A DNA stretch of 37,175 nt, taken from Candidatus Azambacteria bacterium (GTDB taxonomy: Bacteria > Patescibacteriota > Minisyncoccia > GWC2-36-17 > WO2-46-25). The position numbers and the translations under genes were made by a program. Position 1 is the first letter of the stretch, and each line of letters starts with the position of its first letter. The DNA is taken from contig JACRAK010000010.1 in the NCBI GenBank assembly GCA_016234725.1, positions 1 to 37,175 on the forward strand, written 5' to 3'. The notes beneath the pieces are model-generated. The model saw only the letters and a list, made by a program, of their open reading frames with translations. It ran no database searches and was not told the DNA's origin. Below are positions 6,435 to 27,631 of the stretch, piece by piece.

Positions 6435-7532
6435 ATGGAATTTCTATCGTTTGGCACAATTTTAAAAGAACAGGCCTCCCTAGTGCTTGTCGGCGTGTAT
6501 ACCGATACAATCACTGCATCTTTGGTGAAGCGGGAAGAAGGGAAAACGGTGTTTATCTCCACGGCGACAGAGCCGCAGGAAGGGGAAGCGTTTTCAAACG
6601 GCGTGCTTGATATTGAACGAATAGCATTAAACTGCAGGAAGGCACTTAGCGCGTTGCCGCATACACCGGGGAATGCGCCGCATGATGTGGTATTTGCGCT
6701 TGGCGGGGGCATAGGAGAATTTTCATTCATGCGGGAAAAAGGCGTTCGCGAAGCAAAGGAAAAGAAGATAACCGCAGAAGAGGTTGCGGCGCTTGTCGGT
6801 GCGCATACTCAAGGGAACGATAAGGAAGTGGCGCGCAGTTTTGCAGAAAGCTTTCATATCGACGGATTTGCGGTTGCCGACCCGATAGGGTTGAATGGTA
6901 GCGAGATACTCATTGATATTGTGCGTATGGCATGCGCCGACGGGTTTGCACAGAGTCTTTCTCACGTTGCTTCAAGCGCAGGGTTATCGATGAAGGGGTT
7001 TCTTGACATGCGATATGCCGCCGCAAAGCATGCAAAATTCTTTGAAGAAGCGCAGGGTAGCGCGATAGTGCTGTGCATATTCGAGCATGAAACATACGCG
7101 GTGCTTGTGCGTGATCGTGCGGTGGCGGGCGGTGGTGTCGCTCGAGCGGGATATGGTATAATGATCGAAGCAATTGAAAAAACTTTTTTTGTCGGTAGAG
7201 AAGAGGCGAAAGGGATCATGAGAGCATTTACGAACAAAGAACTCGATGAACATACAAGCGCGCGCATACGAGAGGCGTGCGGTGTTGCAGGGAAGGCGCT
7301 GGTCGCAGACATCGCGCAAACCGTTTCGCAGCTTGACCCTACGAGCTTGTTGCCCGGTAATATCCGGGTGGTATCTGCGGGAGAAATGCCCCAGATCGAT
7401 GAAGCATTTCGAGCTCCCGAATGGCTTGCCTCGCTTCCGATAGAGCGAAACGCGACCGTACAGGTGTGGCATGCGCCGGAGCACGATACCGGTGGAACGG
7501 CATTTGATGTACTGATCGCGGAATCCTTATAA
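6435..7532 (+). CDS. FtsA/PilM-like actin-fold ATPase (CPR type)
   Basis: 365 aa. Starts one base after the alaS stop, so it is probably co-transcribed and translationally coupled. Features suggesting the ASKHA fold are an N-terminal VLVGVYTDTITASLV strand-turn-strand, VVFALGGGIGEFSF followed by a charged SHS2-like insert (REKGVREAKEKKITAEEV), a central IDIVRMACADG region, and a late AGGGVARAGYGIMIE glycine-rich loop. Homologues in CPR genomes are annotated as FtsA or PilM; the assignment is by pattern only. No transmembrane segment. The next gene encodes a single-pass membrane protein of the kind that often accompanies such ATPases, suggesting a joint role in division or pilus/envelope assembly. 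A MITE-like element begins 2 bases after the stop. Confidence 0.6.
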   Translation: MEFLSFGTILKEQASLVLVGVYTDTITASLVKREEGKTVFISTATEPQEGEAFSNGVLDIERIALNCRKALSALPHTPGNAPHDVVFALGGGIGEFSFMREKGVREAKEKKITAEEVAALVGAHTQGNDKEVARSFAESFHIDGFAVADPIGLNGSEILIDIVRMACADGFAQSLSHVASSAGLSMKGFLDMRYAAAKHAKFFEEAQGSAIVLCIFEHETYAVLVRDRAVAGGGVARAGYGIMIEAIEKTFFVGREEAKGIMRAFTNKELDEHTSARIREACGVAGKALVADIAQTVSQLDPTSLLPGNIRVVSAGEMPQIDEAFRAPEWLASLPIERNATVQVWHAPEHDTGGTAFDVLIAESL

Positions 7533-7533
7533 T

Positions 7534-7657
7534 ACTTTGCATTATGAAACGTCATCTTCTTCGTTCCGCCTCCGCGTCTTGCCTCGCTGTACTCCACAGT
7601 ACAGCTTCGGCTTCACTGCTCGGCGCGCCTCGAATCTGACATTTCGTAATGCAAAGT
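7534..7657. mobile_element. MITE-like element with 21-bp terminal inverted repeats
   Basis: 7534-7554 and 7637-7657 are inverted repeats matching at 19 of 21 positions (ACTTTGCATTAYGAAAYGTCA). Inside is a smaller hairpin CTGTAC/GTACAG. The ~124-bp element has no coding capacity, is flanked by AT-rich TAT sequence, and fills the gap between the actin-fold gene and its downstream partner. Confidence 0.7.
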
Positions 7658-7672
7658 TATATATTTAAATCC

Positions 7673-9346
7673 ATGAAAAAAATACTGTATATTCACCCCG
7701 AGGAAAGCGTCGCGTATCTTATCGATCGTTTTGAGAACACGGAAGACGAAACGCTCTATCTCGCCGCGGATGATCATCCCGCGCTTTTCACCGATGCGGT
7801 GAATATGAAGCTCCTTGCGCGCGAGGCGAGTGTGCTGCGCAAGCGTATTGTTGTGATCTCTCAAAATCCCGCGGTGCTTGAAATGGCGCGGAACGTCTCT
7901 TTTGACACTATTGCGGAAAATGCCGCGGAATTGGAACGGCAGGAAGCGGAGGCGGCGGCCCCGGTTGCCGCGCCCGCTGCATCACACACAGAGGAAGGCG
8001 GCGAGCAGGAAGAGGAAGTGCAGGTGCGCGTCATCCGCGACGAGAATATCCGTATTCCTTCGCCATACGACGAAGTGCTTATGAGTCCTCCTCGGGAACA
8101 CGGTGAAGAAATACGCTATAGCCGCGATGCGGACGAACACGGCGCATCGGCGTCGGAAGAGGCCGCTCCCTCTCCTATGAGGAAAATGATGCGCGGGAAA
8201 TCACTTACCTGGAAATTCGTGGCGATCTCTTTCATAGCGGCGGGCGTGCTTGCGGGCGGAGCATTTTATGCGCTTTCCCCGCGATTATCGGTTTCGGTCG
8301 TGCCAAAGAAAGAATCGCTGCGGTTTGATTTTCAGGCGATCGCCGACAGCAAGACGTCTGCGCTGGATGTGGATAGATCGAAAGTGCCCGGGCAGATCAT
8401 TACGATAGAGAAAGAGGTGAGCGGAGAATTTACCGCTTCGGCGAAACAAGATAAGGCGACCAGAGCGGAAGGAAAAGTGACGCTGTACAATGAATTCAGT
8501 TCAAGCGCTCAGCCGCTGGTGAAAAATACGCGGCTTCGAGCGCCGGACGGAAAGATATTCCGGCTGAAGGATGCCGTGACCGTTCCCGGGGCGACGGTGC
8601 AAGGCGGCACAGTGACCGCCGCGGGTACGGTGGATGCCTTGGTGATCGCGGATGAAGCGGGACCCGCATATAATATCGGCCCCGCATCGTTTGTGATCCC
8701 TGGATTTGAGGGGACGTCGAAATTCTCCGCATTTTCTGCGAAGTCCTCATCGGTGATGGCGGGCGGGAGCGCGGGAGAAGGGTACGCCGCGACCGCAGAG
8801 GATATTGAAAAGGCGAAAGCATCTCTTAAAAACAAGCTCACCGAAGAAACAAAAGGATACGTTGAAGCGAACGTGCCGAAGGGGTTTGTCGTTTTAGAGA
8901 GCGCGGTCGCGCAACGCGCGCCCGAGTTCTCCCAAGATCAGCCCGATGCGTTGGGGAAGTTCGCCGCACACATGAAAGTTGCGTACGACGTGTTCGTGTT
9001 TTCGGAGAACGACATCGCTGCGCTCACCGAATATCATCTTTCAAAGAAACTGCAGGACGCACGAAAAGCGCTGCCGGGAACGCGCGTTATTACCTATGAG
9101 CGCGAGGCATTCGGCCCCACTAAAGAAACATTAAGCTTTACGGTGAAAGCGAGCGAACTGGTCGCGGGATCTATCGACGAGAAGCAGGTGAAAGAAATGC
9201 TTGCCGGGAAGGGAGAGGCTGATATCCAGCAGATCTTGAGCGCGAATGATGCGATAGAAAGCGCAGAAGCGACGTTTTGGCCATTTTGGATATCGCTTGC
9301 TCCAAGCAACCCGGATCGCATTACGATCGTCATTACCGAGCTGTAG
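7673..9346 (+). CDS. Large single-pass membrane protein, CPR 'baseplate J-like' type
   Basis: 557 aa from ATG 7673 (an in-frame ATG at 7649 lies within the repeat element, so 7673 is preferred). Residues 1-90 form a cytoplasmic domain (KKILYIHPEESVAYLIDRF, later RKRIVVISQNPAVLEMA). Then comes a low-complexity Ala/Glu/Pro linker to about 175, one transmembrane helix at about 178-198 (FVAISFIAAGVLAGGAFYAL), and a long extracytoplasmic region opening with LSVSVVPKKESLRFDF. This arrangement is what CPR genomes show in proteins labelled baseplate-J-like. I infer an envelope or pilus-type role with the upstream actin-fold protein; the biochemical role is unknown. Confidence 0.55.
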   Translation: MKKILYIHPEESVAYLIDRFENTEDETLYLAADDHPALFTDAVNMKLLAREASVLRKRIVVISQNPAVLEMARNVSFDTIAENAAELERQEAEAAAPVAAPAASHTEEGGEQEEEVQVRVIRDENIRIPSPYDEVLMSPPREHGEEIRYSRDADEHGASASEEAAPSPMRKMMRGKSLTWKFVAISFIAAGVLAGGAFYALSPRLSVSVVPKKESLRFDFQAIADSKTSALDVDRSKVPGQIITIEKEVSGEFTASAKQDKATRAEGKVTLYNEFSSSAQPLVKNTRLRAPDGKIFRLKDAVTVPGATVQGGTVTAAGTVDALVIADEAGPAYNIGPASFVIPGFEGTSKFSAFSAKSSSVMAGGSAGEGYAATAEDIEKAKASLKNKLTEETKGYVEANVPKGFVVLESAVAQRAPEFSQDQPDALGKFAAHMKVAYDVFVFSENDIAALTEYHLSKKLQDARKALPGTRVITYEREAFGPTKETLSFTVKASELVAGSIDEKQVKEMLAGKGEADIQQILSANDAIESAEATFWPFWISLAPSNPDRITIVITEL

Positions 9347-23022: not shown

Positions 23023-23658
23023 ATGAAAAACATAGTGACAGAAAGGCAAAAACAGCTTCTCGGTGTTATTTATGACTTCATAAAATCAACGGGATATCCA
23101 CCAACGTATGAGGAGATGCGCGAAGATCTCGGTGTTTCCTCAAACCAGTCAATTGTTGATCTCCTCGAAAAGCTAAAAAAAGCAAGCGTCATCAAAAAAG
23201 ACATAGGAGCAAGAACTCTCGCTATCTTACCACTTGGATATAAGATACTCGGCGCACCACAGCTCGTCTCTGTTCTTGGTGTAACGACAGCCGGAATGCC
23301 AGCCGAAGCAATAGAAATTACAGGCGAGTGGCAGGTGCTTTCTCAAGATGTTTCAAAATTACAGGCCGATGTTTTTATGCTTCGTATCTCTGGCGATTCC
23401 ATGATAAACGCCGGCATTGACGATGGAGATGTGGTTTTAGTCCAAAGCAAGAAAGAATTTGTTTCCGGTGAGGTTGTGCTTGCGCACAAAGACGGCGAAG
23501 CGACCATCAAGCGTTTCATTTCAGAAGATAAGCCGCCGTATGTGTATCTCAAGCCGGAAAACTCAAAATATAAAAACATACTTTTTACCGATACCACCGA
23601 ACTCAAGGGAAAGGTTATTTCAGTATTTAATAAAAACAAATGGAAATCGGTGAAATAA
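23023..23658 (+). CDS. lexA: LexA-like self-cleaving repressor
   Basis: 211 aa. Winged-helix N-terminus: TERQKQLLGVIYDFIKSTGY, PPTYEEMREDLGVSSNQSIV. S24 peptidase C-terminus: cleavage site Ala-Gly in TTAGMPAEA, nucleophile Ser in RISGDSMINAGIDDGD, and the general-base Lys in EATIKRF. Length matches LexA. As first gene of the restriction island it may control the downstream genes, the SOS response, or both. Whether a chromosomal LexA exists elsewhere is unknown. The next gene starts one base after its stop. Confidence 0.88.
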   Translation: MKNIVTERQKQLLGVIYDFIKSTGYPPTYEEMREDLGVSSNQSIVDLLEKLKKASVIKKDIGARTLAILPLGYKILGAPQLVSVLGVTTAGMPAEAIEITGEWQVLSQDVSKLQADVFMLRISGDSMINAGIDDGDVVLVQSKKEFVSGEVVLAHKDGEATIKRFISEDKPPYVYLKPENSKYKNILFTDTTELKGKVISVFNKNKWKSVK

Positions 23659-23659
23659 A

Positions 23660-24073
23660 ATGGAAATCAAGAAACTAAAATCGCATATGCCAAGGGTTCA
23701 CGATAATACAGAGGAAGATTTGATTATTGTCCCTCCGTGTGTTTTGGAAAACAAGCTTAATTCGTTTGAAGAATATACACGAATGAGAGGAAGTATTGGA
23801 ACTAGTATGGGACTTGCCCTTACTTTGCTCGTGGCGGTCATAACATCCGACTTTAAAGATTTTATAAGTTTGCCTGGCGCAAGTATTCGCGGAGCATTTG
23901 TAACAGCTTTTATTGTTATATTGGTTTTAATTATACATAATCTTTTCAGACTATACCGCGCACCAGTGAAAAACCGTGCTTCCATAGTAAAAACTTTTCT
24001 GGGCGTAGATGGCGTAGTGGTCCAAAAATCTAAAAATGATAAAAGCAATCATGCCAACAAAAAAACCCAATAA
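23660..24073 (+). CDS. Two-helix membrane protein of unknown function (137 aa)
   Basis: ATG 23660, directly after the lexA stop. A polar N-terminus of about 40 residues is followed by two hydrophobic helices (GTSMGLALTLLVAVI and GAFVTAFIVILVLIIHNLF) and a Lys/Asn-rich tail. Its last 38 bases overlap the nuclease-methyltransferase start. No family recognised. Position within the island suggests membrane-linked defence or regulation, which is only inference. Confidence 0.65.
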   Translation: MEIKKLKSHMPRVHDNTEEDLIIVPPCVLENKLNSFEEYTRMRGSIGTSMGLALTLLVAVITSDFKDFISLPGASIRGAFVTAFIVILVLIIHNLFRLYRAPVKNRASIVKTFLGVDGVVVQKSKNDKSNHANKKTQ

Positions 24074-26003
24074 ATCAGAAGAAATAATAGGAAAAATTTT
24101 CAAAGATAGCGAGCTCGCGTACGGCCTACGTGAATTTGAAGGCGTTGATATTTTTTCAGTGCTTGAAATCACCGAGGAAGAGCGTGGCAGGTATTATCTC
24201 AGAGATTTGAAAACCGGTAAGAACCGTTTTGTTTATGATGAGAAAAAAGAGTCTGGCAAGCCGGAAGAAATCGTCCGTCAGCTCTGGCTCCATAAATTGA
24301 ACAAGCACTATAAGTATCCGCTTGACCGAATGGACACAGAAAAAGATATTCATTTTGGCCGAGAGATTCATAATAAAGCCGTTGACATCGTTGTTTATAA
24401 ACAGAACAAAGTCACCCCGTACATTCTTATTGAGGTGAAAGCGCCGACAGAAAGTAAAGGCATTGAACAAATGAAGGGATACTTGAATGCCGAAGGCGCG
24501 GAAATCGGCGTATGGGGAAACGGCACCAAGCGTGTCATTCTTTATCGTTTTTACCCGCGCGAATTCAACGACACTCTTCCGGATCTCCCAAACGCCGATC
24601 AAACCATCGATGACCTTTTGGAGGCAAAGAAAACTTACTACGATTACACGACGACAAAAATCAATCTCAAGGAAGCCATTGACTCCATGCAGGAGCTTGT
24701 TCTTGCAAACGCCGGTGTTGATGTCTTTAATGAGGTCTTCAAACTTATTTATGCGAAGCTCTACGATGAGTCCGAAGCACAGCTTCGCCCGGACAAAGAA
24801 GTTTTTTTTCGCAAATATCGTGACCTTTCAAAAACATATAACACGATTAACGACCTTTTCAAGAAAGCCATCAAAAAATGGCCCGGCACGTTTTACGAGC
24901 AGGAAAATATTAGTTTATCTCCCGATCATCTCTCAATCGTCGTCGGCGAGCTTGAGCGCACGCGCCTGTTCGGTTCCGATCTCTCGATTATCGACGAAGC
25001 GTTTGAATATCTCATCCCTGAAGTCGCCAAAGGCAAAAAAGGCCAATATTTCACCCCGCGCCATGTCATCACTATGGCGGTCAAAATGCTTGATCCAAAA
25101 CCCGGAGAATATGTCATAGACCCTGCGGCAGGTTCGGGCGGGTTTCTCATCAACGCCATGTATTCGGTCAAAGACAAGCATCTGAACGGCTTCGAAGAAG
25201 CGATGCGTGAATATGCAAAAGAGTATATCTGGGGCATTGATTTTGCGGATGAAATTTCCAAAACATCCCGCGCGCTTATGCTCGTTGCCGGCGATGGAAG
25301 ATCGCATCTTTTTAAATTGAATTCTCTTGATCCTCGCGAATGGCAGGGCGAAGAAGCACAGCTTCTTGACGCGCGGTCAAAATTGCAGACGCGATTGCTT
25401 CCGCTTGGCAACAGCGCCGACAATGCCGAGAACAAAAAGACATTCCATTACATGAATTTTGATGTCCTACTCACCAATCCGCCGTTTGCCGGAGAAATCA
25501 AAGATCACGGACTTTTACGACAGTATTTCTTCGGCAAGAAAAGAGGCAAGCTGGTCAATAAAATCGAACGGCACATTCTTTTCATTGAACGAACGCTTGA
25601 TATGCTTCGGCCCAGCGGGCGCATGGCAATCGTTTTGCCGCAAGGCGTTTTGAATAATACCAATATGGAGTATGTTCGCGAGTATCTTTTTGACAAAGCG
25701 CGCATACTTGCCGTCGTCGGGCTTCACGGTAATACATTCAAGCCGCATACAGGCACGAAAACAAGTGTGTTGTTTTTGCAAAAGTGGGGAGAAGAGGCGG
25801 GTGAGTCGCAAGCTGACTATCCGATTTTCATGGCAGTATCAAAAAAGGGCGGCAAAGATAATTCTGGCGACTATGCCTATAAAAAAGACGCGACTGGAAA
25901 TTATGTGCATGATACTAAAGGCCGAAAAGTGCTGGACCATGATTTGGATGAAATCGCCGATGGATTTTTGAAGTTCGCGAAAGAGCAGAAATTCAGTTTT
26001 TAA
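24036..26003 (+). CDS. Restriction nuclease-DNA methyltransferase fusion (type I M / BcgI-A-like)
   Basis: 655 aa. Residues about 75-175 resemble the N-terminal nuclease domain of type I R proteins: Glu in PEEIVRQ (78), Asp 117 in VDIVVY and the EVK motif (133-135) make a PD-(D/E)XK site. A helical region follows, then an N6-adenine methyltransferase: DPAAGSGGF (motif I, 362-370) and NPPF (481-484), preceded by GQYFTPRHV typical of HsdM. No helicase gene is in the window. With the HsdS at 27613 this resembles BcgI (RM subunit about 640 aa plus separate S), or a type I M with an R-like N-terminus. An alternative ATG is at 24051; neither has a Shine-Dalgarno. Confidence 0.85.
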   Translation: MIKAIMPTKKPNKSEEIIGKIFKDSELAYGLREFEGVDIFSVLEITEEERGRYYLRDLKTGKNRFVYDEKKESGKPEEIVRQLWLHKLNKHYKYPLDRMDTEKDIHFGREIHNKAVDIVVYKQNKVTPYILIEVKAPTESKGIEQMKGYLNAEGAEIGVWGNGTKRVILYRFYPREFNDTLPDLPNADQTIDDLLEAKKTYYDYTTTKINLKEAIDSMQELVLANAGVDVFNEVFKLIYAKLYDESEAQLRPDKEVFFRKYRDLSKTYNTINDLFKKAIKKWPGTFYEQENISLSPDHLSIVVGELERTRLFGSDLSIIDEAFEYLIPEVAKGKKGQYFTPRHVITMAVKMLDPKPGEYVIDPAAGSGGFLINAMYSVKDKHLNGFEEAMREYAKEYIWGIDFADEISKTSRALMLVAGDGRSHLFKLNSLDPREWQGEEAQLLDARSKLQTRLLPLGNSADNAENKKTFHYMNFDVLLTNPPFAGEIKDHGLLRQYFFGKKRGKLVNKIERHILFIERTLDMLRPSGRMAIVLPQGVLNNTNMEYVREYLFDKARILAVVGLHGNTFKPHTGTKTSVLFLQKWGEEAGESQADYPIFMAVSKKGGKDNSGDYAYKKDATGNYVHDTKGRKVLDHDLDEIADGFLKFAKEQKFSF

Positions 26004-26064
26004 ACGAATGACATGGATTTACATGAGTTAAGAAGAAATCACTATCTCTTTGACCATAAACAAT

Positions 26065-26178
26065 ATGAGTGATGAACTTGAAAAAGTCGCTGATACATTT
26101 GTGCCTGCCGAAAAACTGAAAGATTTGCTCATATACCACAATAAAAACTACACTCCGCCCTTTCGGACGGAGGTATAA
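26065..26178 (+). CDS. Possible 37-codon small protein
   Basis: ATG 26065 opens MSDELEKVADTFVPAEKLKD, ending FRTEV-stop at 26178. The last codons run into the hairpin CTCCG/CGGAG. No promoter or Shine-Dalgarno is clear; it may be a gene remnant or chance. Confidence 0.25.
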   Translation: MSDELEKVADTFVPAEKLKDLLIYHNKNYTPPFRTEV

Positions 26179-26221
26179 ATACGATCCTATTATCCCATAG
26201 GCGGGGGGTAGCTTTCGCTAC
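26153..26221. repeat. Cluster of three hairpins in the island
   Basis: CTCCG/CGGAG (26153-26172), CCTAT/ATAGG (26186-26201) and GTAGC-TTTC-GCTAC (26208-26221) in a row, inside the segment bounded by the repeated methyltransferase 3' end. Confidence 0.6.
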
Positions 26222-26286
26222 AGTTTCAACTATACACCAATGGCAGGTTACAATCGAGCGTCGTTGTGGATAATCGAGAAAACATT

Positions 26287-26730
26287 ATGAAAATAGAACC
26301 CACCAAAGAACAATACAAGGAATTATTGCTACTCGTTCTTCTCGGCTCGTGGGTGCGGGGCGGTGTTGCCGATATGAGGGGAGAATACAGTAAAGAAATG
26401 GACGAACTGGAGGAGTATTTGCTTGGCGAAGCGAAGAATTTTGATCTCGACGATCTGGTAGAACATTTTGAAGGCCATATCGTGCCAAGCGACAAATTGT
26501 CAAAAGAATACGAAGAAATCATGGAGGAATACAACGACGATGAGTTTTGGATCCAGCTTTCAAGGCGCTTGGGCCAGAGAGATTTTGAAAGGACAATAAG
26601 CGAAGAAGAGGAACGGCATATGAAAGACAATAATGGTTGGTTCCCTGAAAGAGTTCATGAACTATACAAGGAATACGACAAAGAATTCGAGAAACACGGC
26701 ATTGATAGGTTGGAAATCAAAGAGAATTAA
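26287..26730 (+). CDS. Acidic helical protein of unknown function (147 aa), cassette cargo
   Basis: ATG 26287. Begins MKIEPTKEQYKELLLLVLLG, which may be a short helix and not a signal peptide; the rest is Glu/Asp/Lys-rich and helical (KEMDELEEYLLGEAKNFD, SEEEERHMKDNNGWFPERV). No catalytic motif seen. It is the only sizeable gene between the methyltransferase 3' end and a near-copy of that end at 26740, so it may have been inserted as a unit. Acidic character could suit a DNA-mimic or regulator, but nothing in the sequence proves that. Confidence 0.6.
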   Translation: MKIEPTKEQYKELLLLVLLGSWVRGGVADMRGEYSKEMDELEEYLLGEAKNFDLDDLVEHFEGHIVPSDKLSKEYEEIMEEYNDDEFWIQLSRRLGQRDFERTISEEEERHMKDNNGWFPERVHELYKEYDKEFEKHGIDRLEIKEN

Positions 26731-26739
26731 AGAATAAAA

Positions 26740-26762
26740 AAAGAGCAGAAATCATTTTTTAA
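26740..26762 (+). repeat. Echo of the methyltransferase gene 3' end
   Basis: Matches 25980-26003 (codons for KEQKFSF and stop) at 22 of 24 aligned positions with one gap. It lies directly before the DUF2806-like gene start, as though that gene once followed the methyltransferase directly. Confidence 0.75.
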
Positions 26763-26764
26763 AT

Positions 26765-27631
26765 ATGACTATTTTTGAAAAGATCTTCGGAAAAATCTCT
26801 TTTCTTTGGAGAGGAAATAAGAAAAAGATTTCAAAGCAACATAGTGGACAATTACAAGTACAACAAGAAAAAGATGGAGTTGTTAACATTTTCAACATAC
26901 AAAATGTGTCCATCGATCAGATTCGTGAATTAACTAGTTTTAAACCAGAAAAAAATAGTAACCTTCTGGGAAATGCTCAAAAACGTTTTGTAACGGAACA
27001 AGTAATGAGGCAACAAAATCTAGCGTCTATAGTTAAAAAATCTTCGTTAGAAGATGTAGCTAATCCTAATAATCTTGAAAAAGATTGGTTTTTGAAATGG
27101 ATGGATATATCACAAGAGGTTAGTCGAGACGAAATGCAGGATATTTTAGCAAAAATTCTTCGTGGAGAAGTGCAAAGACCAGGAGCTTTTTCAGCTCGTA
27201 CGCTAGAGGTTGTGCGTAGTCTAGGTCTGAGAGAATTAGAAATATTCAGAAAATTTATCGCCTTAGCTAATTATAATGCTTGTGTATTAACATTAGGGAA
27301 ATCAATTCTGACAGAATTTGTTTTTGATAAATATGATATTTCTTATAATGATTTTTTAACTGTGAGTGAAGCTGGGTTAGTTTCAGCTTCTAACTCTGCA
27401 ATAATTTTAAGTTTTAAAAAGGATCAACGATTGCAATTTAATATTGGTAGTAAATATGTTACAAAAACAGCCACAAAAGAAAGCGACAAACTACCAGTAA
27501 GCGCATTATTATTTACTCTTGTTGGGAAAGAAATTGCCTCACTTATTGAGGGTGAAAATATAAAAAAAGATGAATACATTAAAGACTTAGAAATATATCT
27601 TGATTCAATCCTATGCCCACCTACTCCATAA
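26765..27631 (+). CDS. DUF2806-like protein within the restriction cluster
   Basis: 288 aa. ATG 26765. The central part, KDWFLKWMDISQEVSRDEMQ then DILAKILRGEVQRPGAFSART and LEVVRSLGLRELEIFRKF, resembles the DUF2806 pattern (W.....vs.eemQ..wA.iL.gE...Pg.fS.rtl). The N-terminus is Lys/Gln-rich; a single hydrophobic stretch (NSAIILSF) is not a clear membrane segment. Codon use is much more AT-rich than the ribosomal genes, suggesting transfer. It overlaps hsdS by 19 bases, so the two are translationally coupled. Function unknown; association with defence loci is inferred from this context. Confidence 0.6.
   Translation: MTIFEKIFGKISFLWRGNKKKISKQHSGQLQVQQEKDGVVNIFNIQNVSIDQIRELTSFKPEKNSNLLGNAQKRFVTEQVMRQQNLASIVKKSSLEDVANPNNLEKDWFLKWMDISQEVSRDEMQDILAKILRGEVQRPGAFSARTLEVVRSLGLRELEIFRKFIALANYNACVLTLGKSILTEFVFDKYDISYNDFLTVSEAGLVSASNSAIILSFKKDQRLQFNIGSKYVTKTATKESDKLPVSALLFTLVGKEIASLIEGENIKKDEYIKDLEIYLDSILCPPTP

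Follow-up and report, generated by a model that had tools for sequence, protein, structure and literature searches.

Type I hsd loci of Campylobacter jejuni reportedly contain accessory open reading frames named rlo and mlo, in an account by Miller et al. from 2005. Two papers on these Campylobacter loci describe variable genes between the restriction subunit genes (PMC5183652, PMC2610378). Accessory genes such as PrrC act upon inhibition of restriction (PMC12707154). Here we analysed a restriction operon of a Patescibacteria (CPR) genome of 0.92 Mb, together with its counterparts in related genomes, and compared it with these systems.

The window, meaning the whole stretch of DNA analysed, is one 37-kb contig (37,175 nt), and the named relatives of its genome are mostly CPR/Patescibacteria MAGs. 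The operon runs in the order LexA-like repressor, 137-aa ORF, hsdM-type nuclease-methyltransferase, P0001, an apparent broken hsdM end (hereafter, scar), DUF2806 and hsdS (Table 1). As in the type IIB enzymes BcgI and BsaXI, a nuclease and an N6-adenine methyltransferase share one polypeptide (P0003), and a separate S subunit lies next door (P0004). Unlike BcgI and BsaXI, the window operon includes a slot for accessory genes as well as a LexA-like repressor, and the likeness is one of genes alone. In many relatives, the stretch just upstream of hsdM closes with a similar coding sequence. The 137-aa ORF (23660–24073), located between the LexA-like gene and hsdM, has no Pfam match, and its place is apparently empty in many relatives.

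Table 1 Features of the restriction operon in the window
Feature	Position	Strand	Evidence or remark
LexA-like S24 repressor gene, upstream of operon	23023–23658	+	Pfam Peptidase_S24 2e-24, LexA_DNA_bind 5e-12
hsdM-type gene P0003, HSDR_N nuclease and N6 methyltransferase fusion	24036–26003	+	HSDR_N_2 4.5e-20, N6_Mtase 2.9e-36
Resident hsdM 3′ end (KEQKFSF, stop)	25980–26003	+	Tail conserved in relatives
Putative insert (slot cassette A), flanked by resident hsdM and older hsdM scar	26004–26739	+	Repeat and relatives
19-codon frame (MDLHELRRNHYLFDHKQYE, stop)	26013–26072	+	Weakly like start of NYN-gene remnant in L029 (MDGLDDFRRNYYLFNPEKYGNIFVFVD)
37-codon frame	26065–26178	+	Faint likeness to C-terminal part of DUF3800, E=0.58
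Hairpin cluster	26153–26222	−	Folds on minus strand, terminator-like stem at end
Promoter-like GTTACA-16-GATAAT before 154-aa gene	26247–26274	+	1 found against 1.9 expected, no more than chance
Cassette gene P0001, family without assigned function	26287–26730	+	147 aa from ATG
Scar, putative last ~24 nt of older hsdM	26740–26762	+	2 bp before DUF2806 start
Older slot gene (predicted), DUF2806	26765–27631	+	DUF2806 8.8e-30; 19-bp overlap with hsdS start
hsdS specificity subunit P0004	27613–28983	+	Pfam Methylase_S 8e-13

The end of hsdM (AAAGAGCAGAAATTCAGTTTTTAA) recurs just before the DUF2806 gene (AAAGAGCAGAAA-TCATTTTTTAA), with identity at 22 of 24 aligned positions, one mismatch and a 1-nt gap. 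An earlier note on this DNA had proposed this duplication, and it stands: the local alignment score was 36, the following 800 bp, dinucleotide-shuffled 2,000 times, reached at most 26, and the next-best place for the hsdM tail within the window scored about 20. A search of the window's genome turned up no other intact tail. The note had named a chance A-rich match as the result that would overturn it. This reading, which concerns the window only, draws on the shortness of the copy and on 2 of 198 control genes that equal or exceed the score of the window copy taken alone, one of the two being itself a tail plus NYN unit. We give it scarcely any credence, as no shuffle reached the window score and the same placement, right before a slot gene, recurs in other operons. 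In another genome, a 27-bp match of 26719–26745 appears to be low-complexity sequence and was set aside.

The segment between the two copies reads as a later-inserted unit holding a remnant, hairpins and the 154-aa gene, and 26740–26762 as what survives of an older hsdM, which would once have stood directly before DUF2806. The segment 26004–26740 occurs once in the window's genome. It is not one clean cassette, and combines a weakly NYN-like remnant, the hairpins and P0001. Comparison of the 19-codon frame with the L029 remnant gave a DNA score of 29, inside the range of 200 shuffles. The gene and the possible 37-codon frame listed in the earlier note are both present, and the latter is probably gene debris. 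Of the three-hairpin cluster also listed there, the minus strand folds better than shuffles (z −2.9) and is closed by a terminator-like stem (26172–26153) followed by T's, whereas the plus strand is unremarkable (z −1.5). The cluster is a possible small RNA or bidirectional terminator; an Rfam search of the region returned no match at gathering level.

The P0001 ORF extends over 154 aa from a GTG at 26266, with the ATG at 26287 the likelier start. A homologue in locus L086 likewise sits between two hsdM scars, so that the family occurs in such arrays at least twice. P0001 is not specific to restriction–modification operons, since most family members, present in 18 of 384 class genomes, lie elsewhere. 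PADLOC gave no match for P0001, and a single-sequence AlphaFold model (pLDDT 44) was too poor for use. DnaA-box-like sequences (TGTGGATAAC / TTATCCACA or close variants) are repeated close to cassette junctions and also beside the −35 of minus-strand promoters; they were located at 26265–26275 in the window and in L027, L034, L037, L082, L086, L094 and L154.

To compare the hsdM–hsdS interval across relatives, we collected hsdM relatives 56–86% identical from GTDB genomes, together with class and phylum searches, and counted 37 distinct loci with hsdM and hsdS both on one contig; the hsdM of L027 is 86% identical to that of the window. The interval holds no gene in 3 loci, one gene in 22 and several genes in 12, all on the strand of hsdM. 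The three empty slots (L040, L120 and L121) provide empty-site alleles, whose absence the earlier note had named as a refuting result. In most loci the hsdM protein tail is of the KFAKEQKF[SND]F(W) type, and hsdS starts with YSIIQKSQLEG or similar. The genes between these flanks are mostly of different families from operon to operon. Pfam families found in the slots are DUF3800, NYN, DUF4145, Trypsin_2, PemK, AlbA_2, Fic, PBECR3 (below cut-off), DUF5677, AAA_13, RhuM and DUF2806; the remaining slot genes scanned had no match. The DUF2806 relatives L045 and L046 adjoin neither hsdM nor hsdS. Between L039 and L083 the slot gene is ~82% identical in DNA, compared with ~62% for hsdM and ~45% for hsdS, with identity changing in steps where hsdM stops and where hsdS starts. 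In this pair, the slot gene was swapped as a unit, and the 37 loci together point to the hsdM–hsdS interval of these CPR restriction operons as an accessory-gene slot.

Variable genes between restriction subunit genes, including between hsdS and hsdM, are shared with rlo/mlo. Unlike rlo/mlo, the CPR operons are a two-gene system with a fused nuclease-methyltransferase and the order M–slot–S. An accessory gene inside a restriction operon is also found with PrrC in EcoprrI and with RloC, whereas the cargo here is mostly of other families and its coupling to restriction is putative. L095 has a slot protein of AAA_13, the Pfam family associated with PrrC/RloC. The cargo is probably made up of defence genes, with a likely role in restriction-coupled back-up defence.

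A further conserved element of ~86 nt is RNA-like and on the minus strand, consisting of a hairpin, GGGTATTACATCC and a terminator, with a TTGAC...TATACT-like promoter. It lies 3′ of NYN genes and once after a DUF3800 gene instead. We observed it in L034, L042, L085, L091, L096, L092, L083 and L116, and in the window's own genome at G000:C13:36089–36175 (−); a model of the element (R1) matched in 10 of 16 genomes searched. It is possibly a new small RNA.

A scar marks a cassette boundary in 10 of the 12 multi-gene slots, with L082 and L116 (weak) borderline. In one of these slots it is just an hsdS 5′ end; in the others a broken-off hsdM 3′ end is present. Copies of the hsdM end precede the second or third gene in the window (24 nt), L028 (~27), L042 (~39), L082 (~38), L096 (90), L098 (51) and L123 (89), and L086 has two (~76–86 and 23 nt). 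Several are short (23–39 nt) and A/T-rich. Between cassettes of L087 an hsdS 5′ end (68 bp) is joined to an hsdM 3′ end (40 bp), the L034 scar consists of an hsdS 5′ end alone, and in L093 a foreign hsdM tail precedes the first slot gene. No scar was found in the multi-gene slots of L035 and L091, and local tail matches that fall within ORFs in L041, L091 and L094 were put down to chance. The earlier note's inserted unit that regenerates the 3′ end of its target gene is supported, in that the junction duplicates the hsdM end, empty-slot alleles exist and the pattern recurs in other loci. Cassette boundaries that bear broken hsdM or hsdS ends set these operons apart from rlo/mlo; we found no description of such scars in the open-access rlo/mlo papers.

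Two side observations concern individual loci. Just after the hsdM stop at the foreign tail of L093 lies a palindrome-rich ~36-bp sequence (TGCCCCGTAGCGAAACGAAGTTTCTACTACTGGGGC) that resembles a small mobile palindromic element. In L086, a DUF3800-like gene at +6 to +943 of the slot is split into two frames, which suggests that its hsdM-proximal cassette may be decaying.

The right ends of the hsdM copies coincide with the hsdM stop or lie no more than about 10 nt from it, and are 2–22 bp before the next ATG, as in the native hsdM-to-slot spacing. For hsdM-tail matches just upstream, slot genes that do not adjoin hsdM scored far above 198 other genes (Mann–Whitney p=1.7e-6, an indicative value, as the compared sequences are related and the 198 controls come from the same loci). 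The position 2–22 bp before an ATG in each case would also fit a convergent or selected translation-initiation or coupling element that is no relic of hsdM. We consider this very improbable: the long copies (51, 76–86, 89 and 90 nt) are unmistakable hsdM coding sequence, and the tail is absent from the 198 control genes bar rare cases. An initiation role may nevertheless explain why an hsdM relic is kept.

The source of the scars differs among loci. The copy is nearest the resident hsdM in the window, L082, L086 (first copy), L087 and L096, as expected if the hsdM end and slot had been duplicated locally in tandem and then deleted or diverged, with no horizontal input. In L028, L042, L086 (second copy), L093 and L123 it is instead nearer another hsdM lineage, and adjoining cassettes are unrelated to one another, which makes local duplication unlikely.

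Tail copies also occur away from the slot. A tail pattern search of 354 genomes gave 13 matches, and the reversed pattern gave 1. Three of the 13 are remote from any hsdM: one before an NYN gene (L130/L150), one after an NYN gene (L133/L151) and one before a DUF3800 gene (L137/L152). A fourth off-slot copy lies several kb beyond the operon of L092, and L154 has an NYN gene with tail copies on both flanks, upstream of a mutM-looking gene. In L152, the tail and DUF3800 gene are accompanied by a remnant of hsdS, collapsed so that its two ends are joined at a shared AAAATCCCA; at least L152 is therefore a decayed restriction operon. Between accessory genes of L092 (reverse complement, 7050–9030) and L150 (reverse complement, 560–1880), ~250-bp spacer blocks are repeated; they include the apparent 3′ end of another gene (...KLKNNFANWEDLGL), which suggests that 3′-end scarring may also affect a second gene family.

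Such tail-plus-gene units would be expected if the hsdM 3′ end served as an integron-like attachment site, copied on each cassette, with a recombinase acting in trans, much as the earlier note had envisaged for a cassette moved in trans. The copies end at the hsdM stop, and new genes lie on the hsdM side. One left junction (TGTGGATAACT|AAAAATTCG... and variants) is common to L028, L042, L082, L151 and L154, and the genes that flank it on both sides differ. Apart from this common junction, the left ends range from 23 to 90 nt upstream of the hsdM stop, so that the duplicated core is not constant in extent; hsdS 5′ ends form scars too, several copies are closer to a different hsdM lineage than to the resident one, and at least the orphan L152 lies in a decayed operon. 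No recombinase was recognised in any slot among the part of the slot genes that was Pfam-scanned, in line with the earlier note's remark on the window unit. Like integron gene-cassette arrays, small single-gene units are stacked beside a fixed gene with boundary repeats; unlike integrons, no integrase was seen, no attC-type sites were recognised, and the boundary repeats are of unequal length and derive from coding sequence. Movement in trans is thus unsupported, and integrase capture is distinctly unlikely. The fuller version, in which the hsdM 3′ end is a capture site and tail-plus-gene cassettes circulate among CPR genomes, both inside and outside restriction operons, through dedicated putative machinery, we regard as quite improbable; if true, the operon would serve defence genes as a platform in the manner of an integron. 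A search of viral contigs yielded no relatives of the hsdM protein; on plasmids, hsdM relatives are distant (28–47%), and a Klebsiella plasmid has hsdS directly after an hsdM-type gene without a slot gene.

We favour, with reasonable but not strong confidence, a slot in which cassettes stack through hsdM homology on one side and an illegitimate join on the other, leaving a broken end of the old hsdM. Usually, the contents of the slot would be exchanged as a unit by way of its conserved flanks, the hsdM 3′ end and hsdS 5′ end. Occasionally, a second operon copy or fragment would recombine by homology at hsdM and join illegitimately at its other side, placing the newcomer upstream of the old cassette and leaving the broken-off end of the old hsdM; collapse of stacked (tandem) operons would be an alternative route. 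In the window, a newer stretch with hsdM and cassette A (P0001) would have taken the place of an older hsdM before DUF2806, sparing its final 24 nt. The tail would be kept since it may carry the translation-initiation region of the next gene.

Ragged left ends, the compound hsdS 5′–hsdM 3′ scar and the lack of a recognised recombinase favour homologous and illegitimate recombination, or operon collapse, over an integrase; the varied left ends and the hsdS scars speak against a site-specific process, although the left junction common to five loci could also come from one. Homology-facilitated illegitimate recombination (HFIR) has one homologous and one illegitimate end, typically with 3–10 bp of microhomology, and inserts of ~1 kb (PMC3240628), and competence has been reported for CPR bacteria (PMC12455944). 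The junctions here would resemble HFIR in their two kinds of end and in inserts of about 1 kb; unlike HFIR, the process in CPR bacteria is deduced from junctions. Microhomology is clear in L152, suggestive in L098 and not clear at most other junctions, and with one clear case the recombination step is inferred.

Accessory genes in restriction operons are already known, whereas there appears to be no earlier description of the scarred arrays or the orphan copies in the open-access literature, and the use of a scarred array to read insertion order seems new. The broken hsdM ends would act as breakpoints that give the order in which genes were added. Many slot genes have no annotation or a DUF number alone, and reading between the KFAKEQKF tail and the hsdS start offers a handle for mining restriction-linked genes. 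For streamlined CPR bacteria, the slot could be a concrete route for collecting and swapping accessory, probably defence, genes in one operon.
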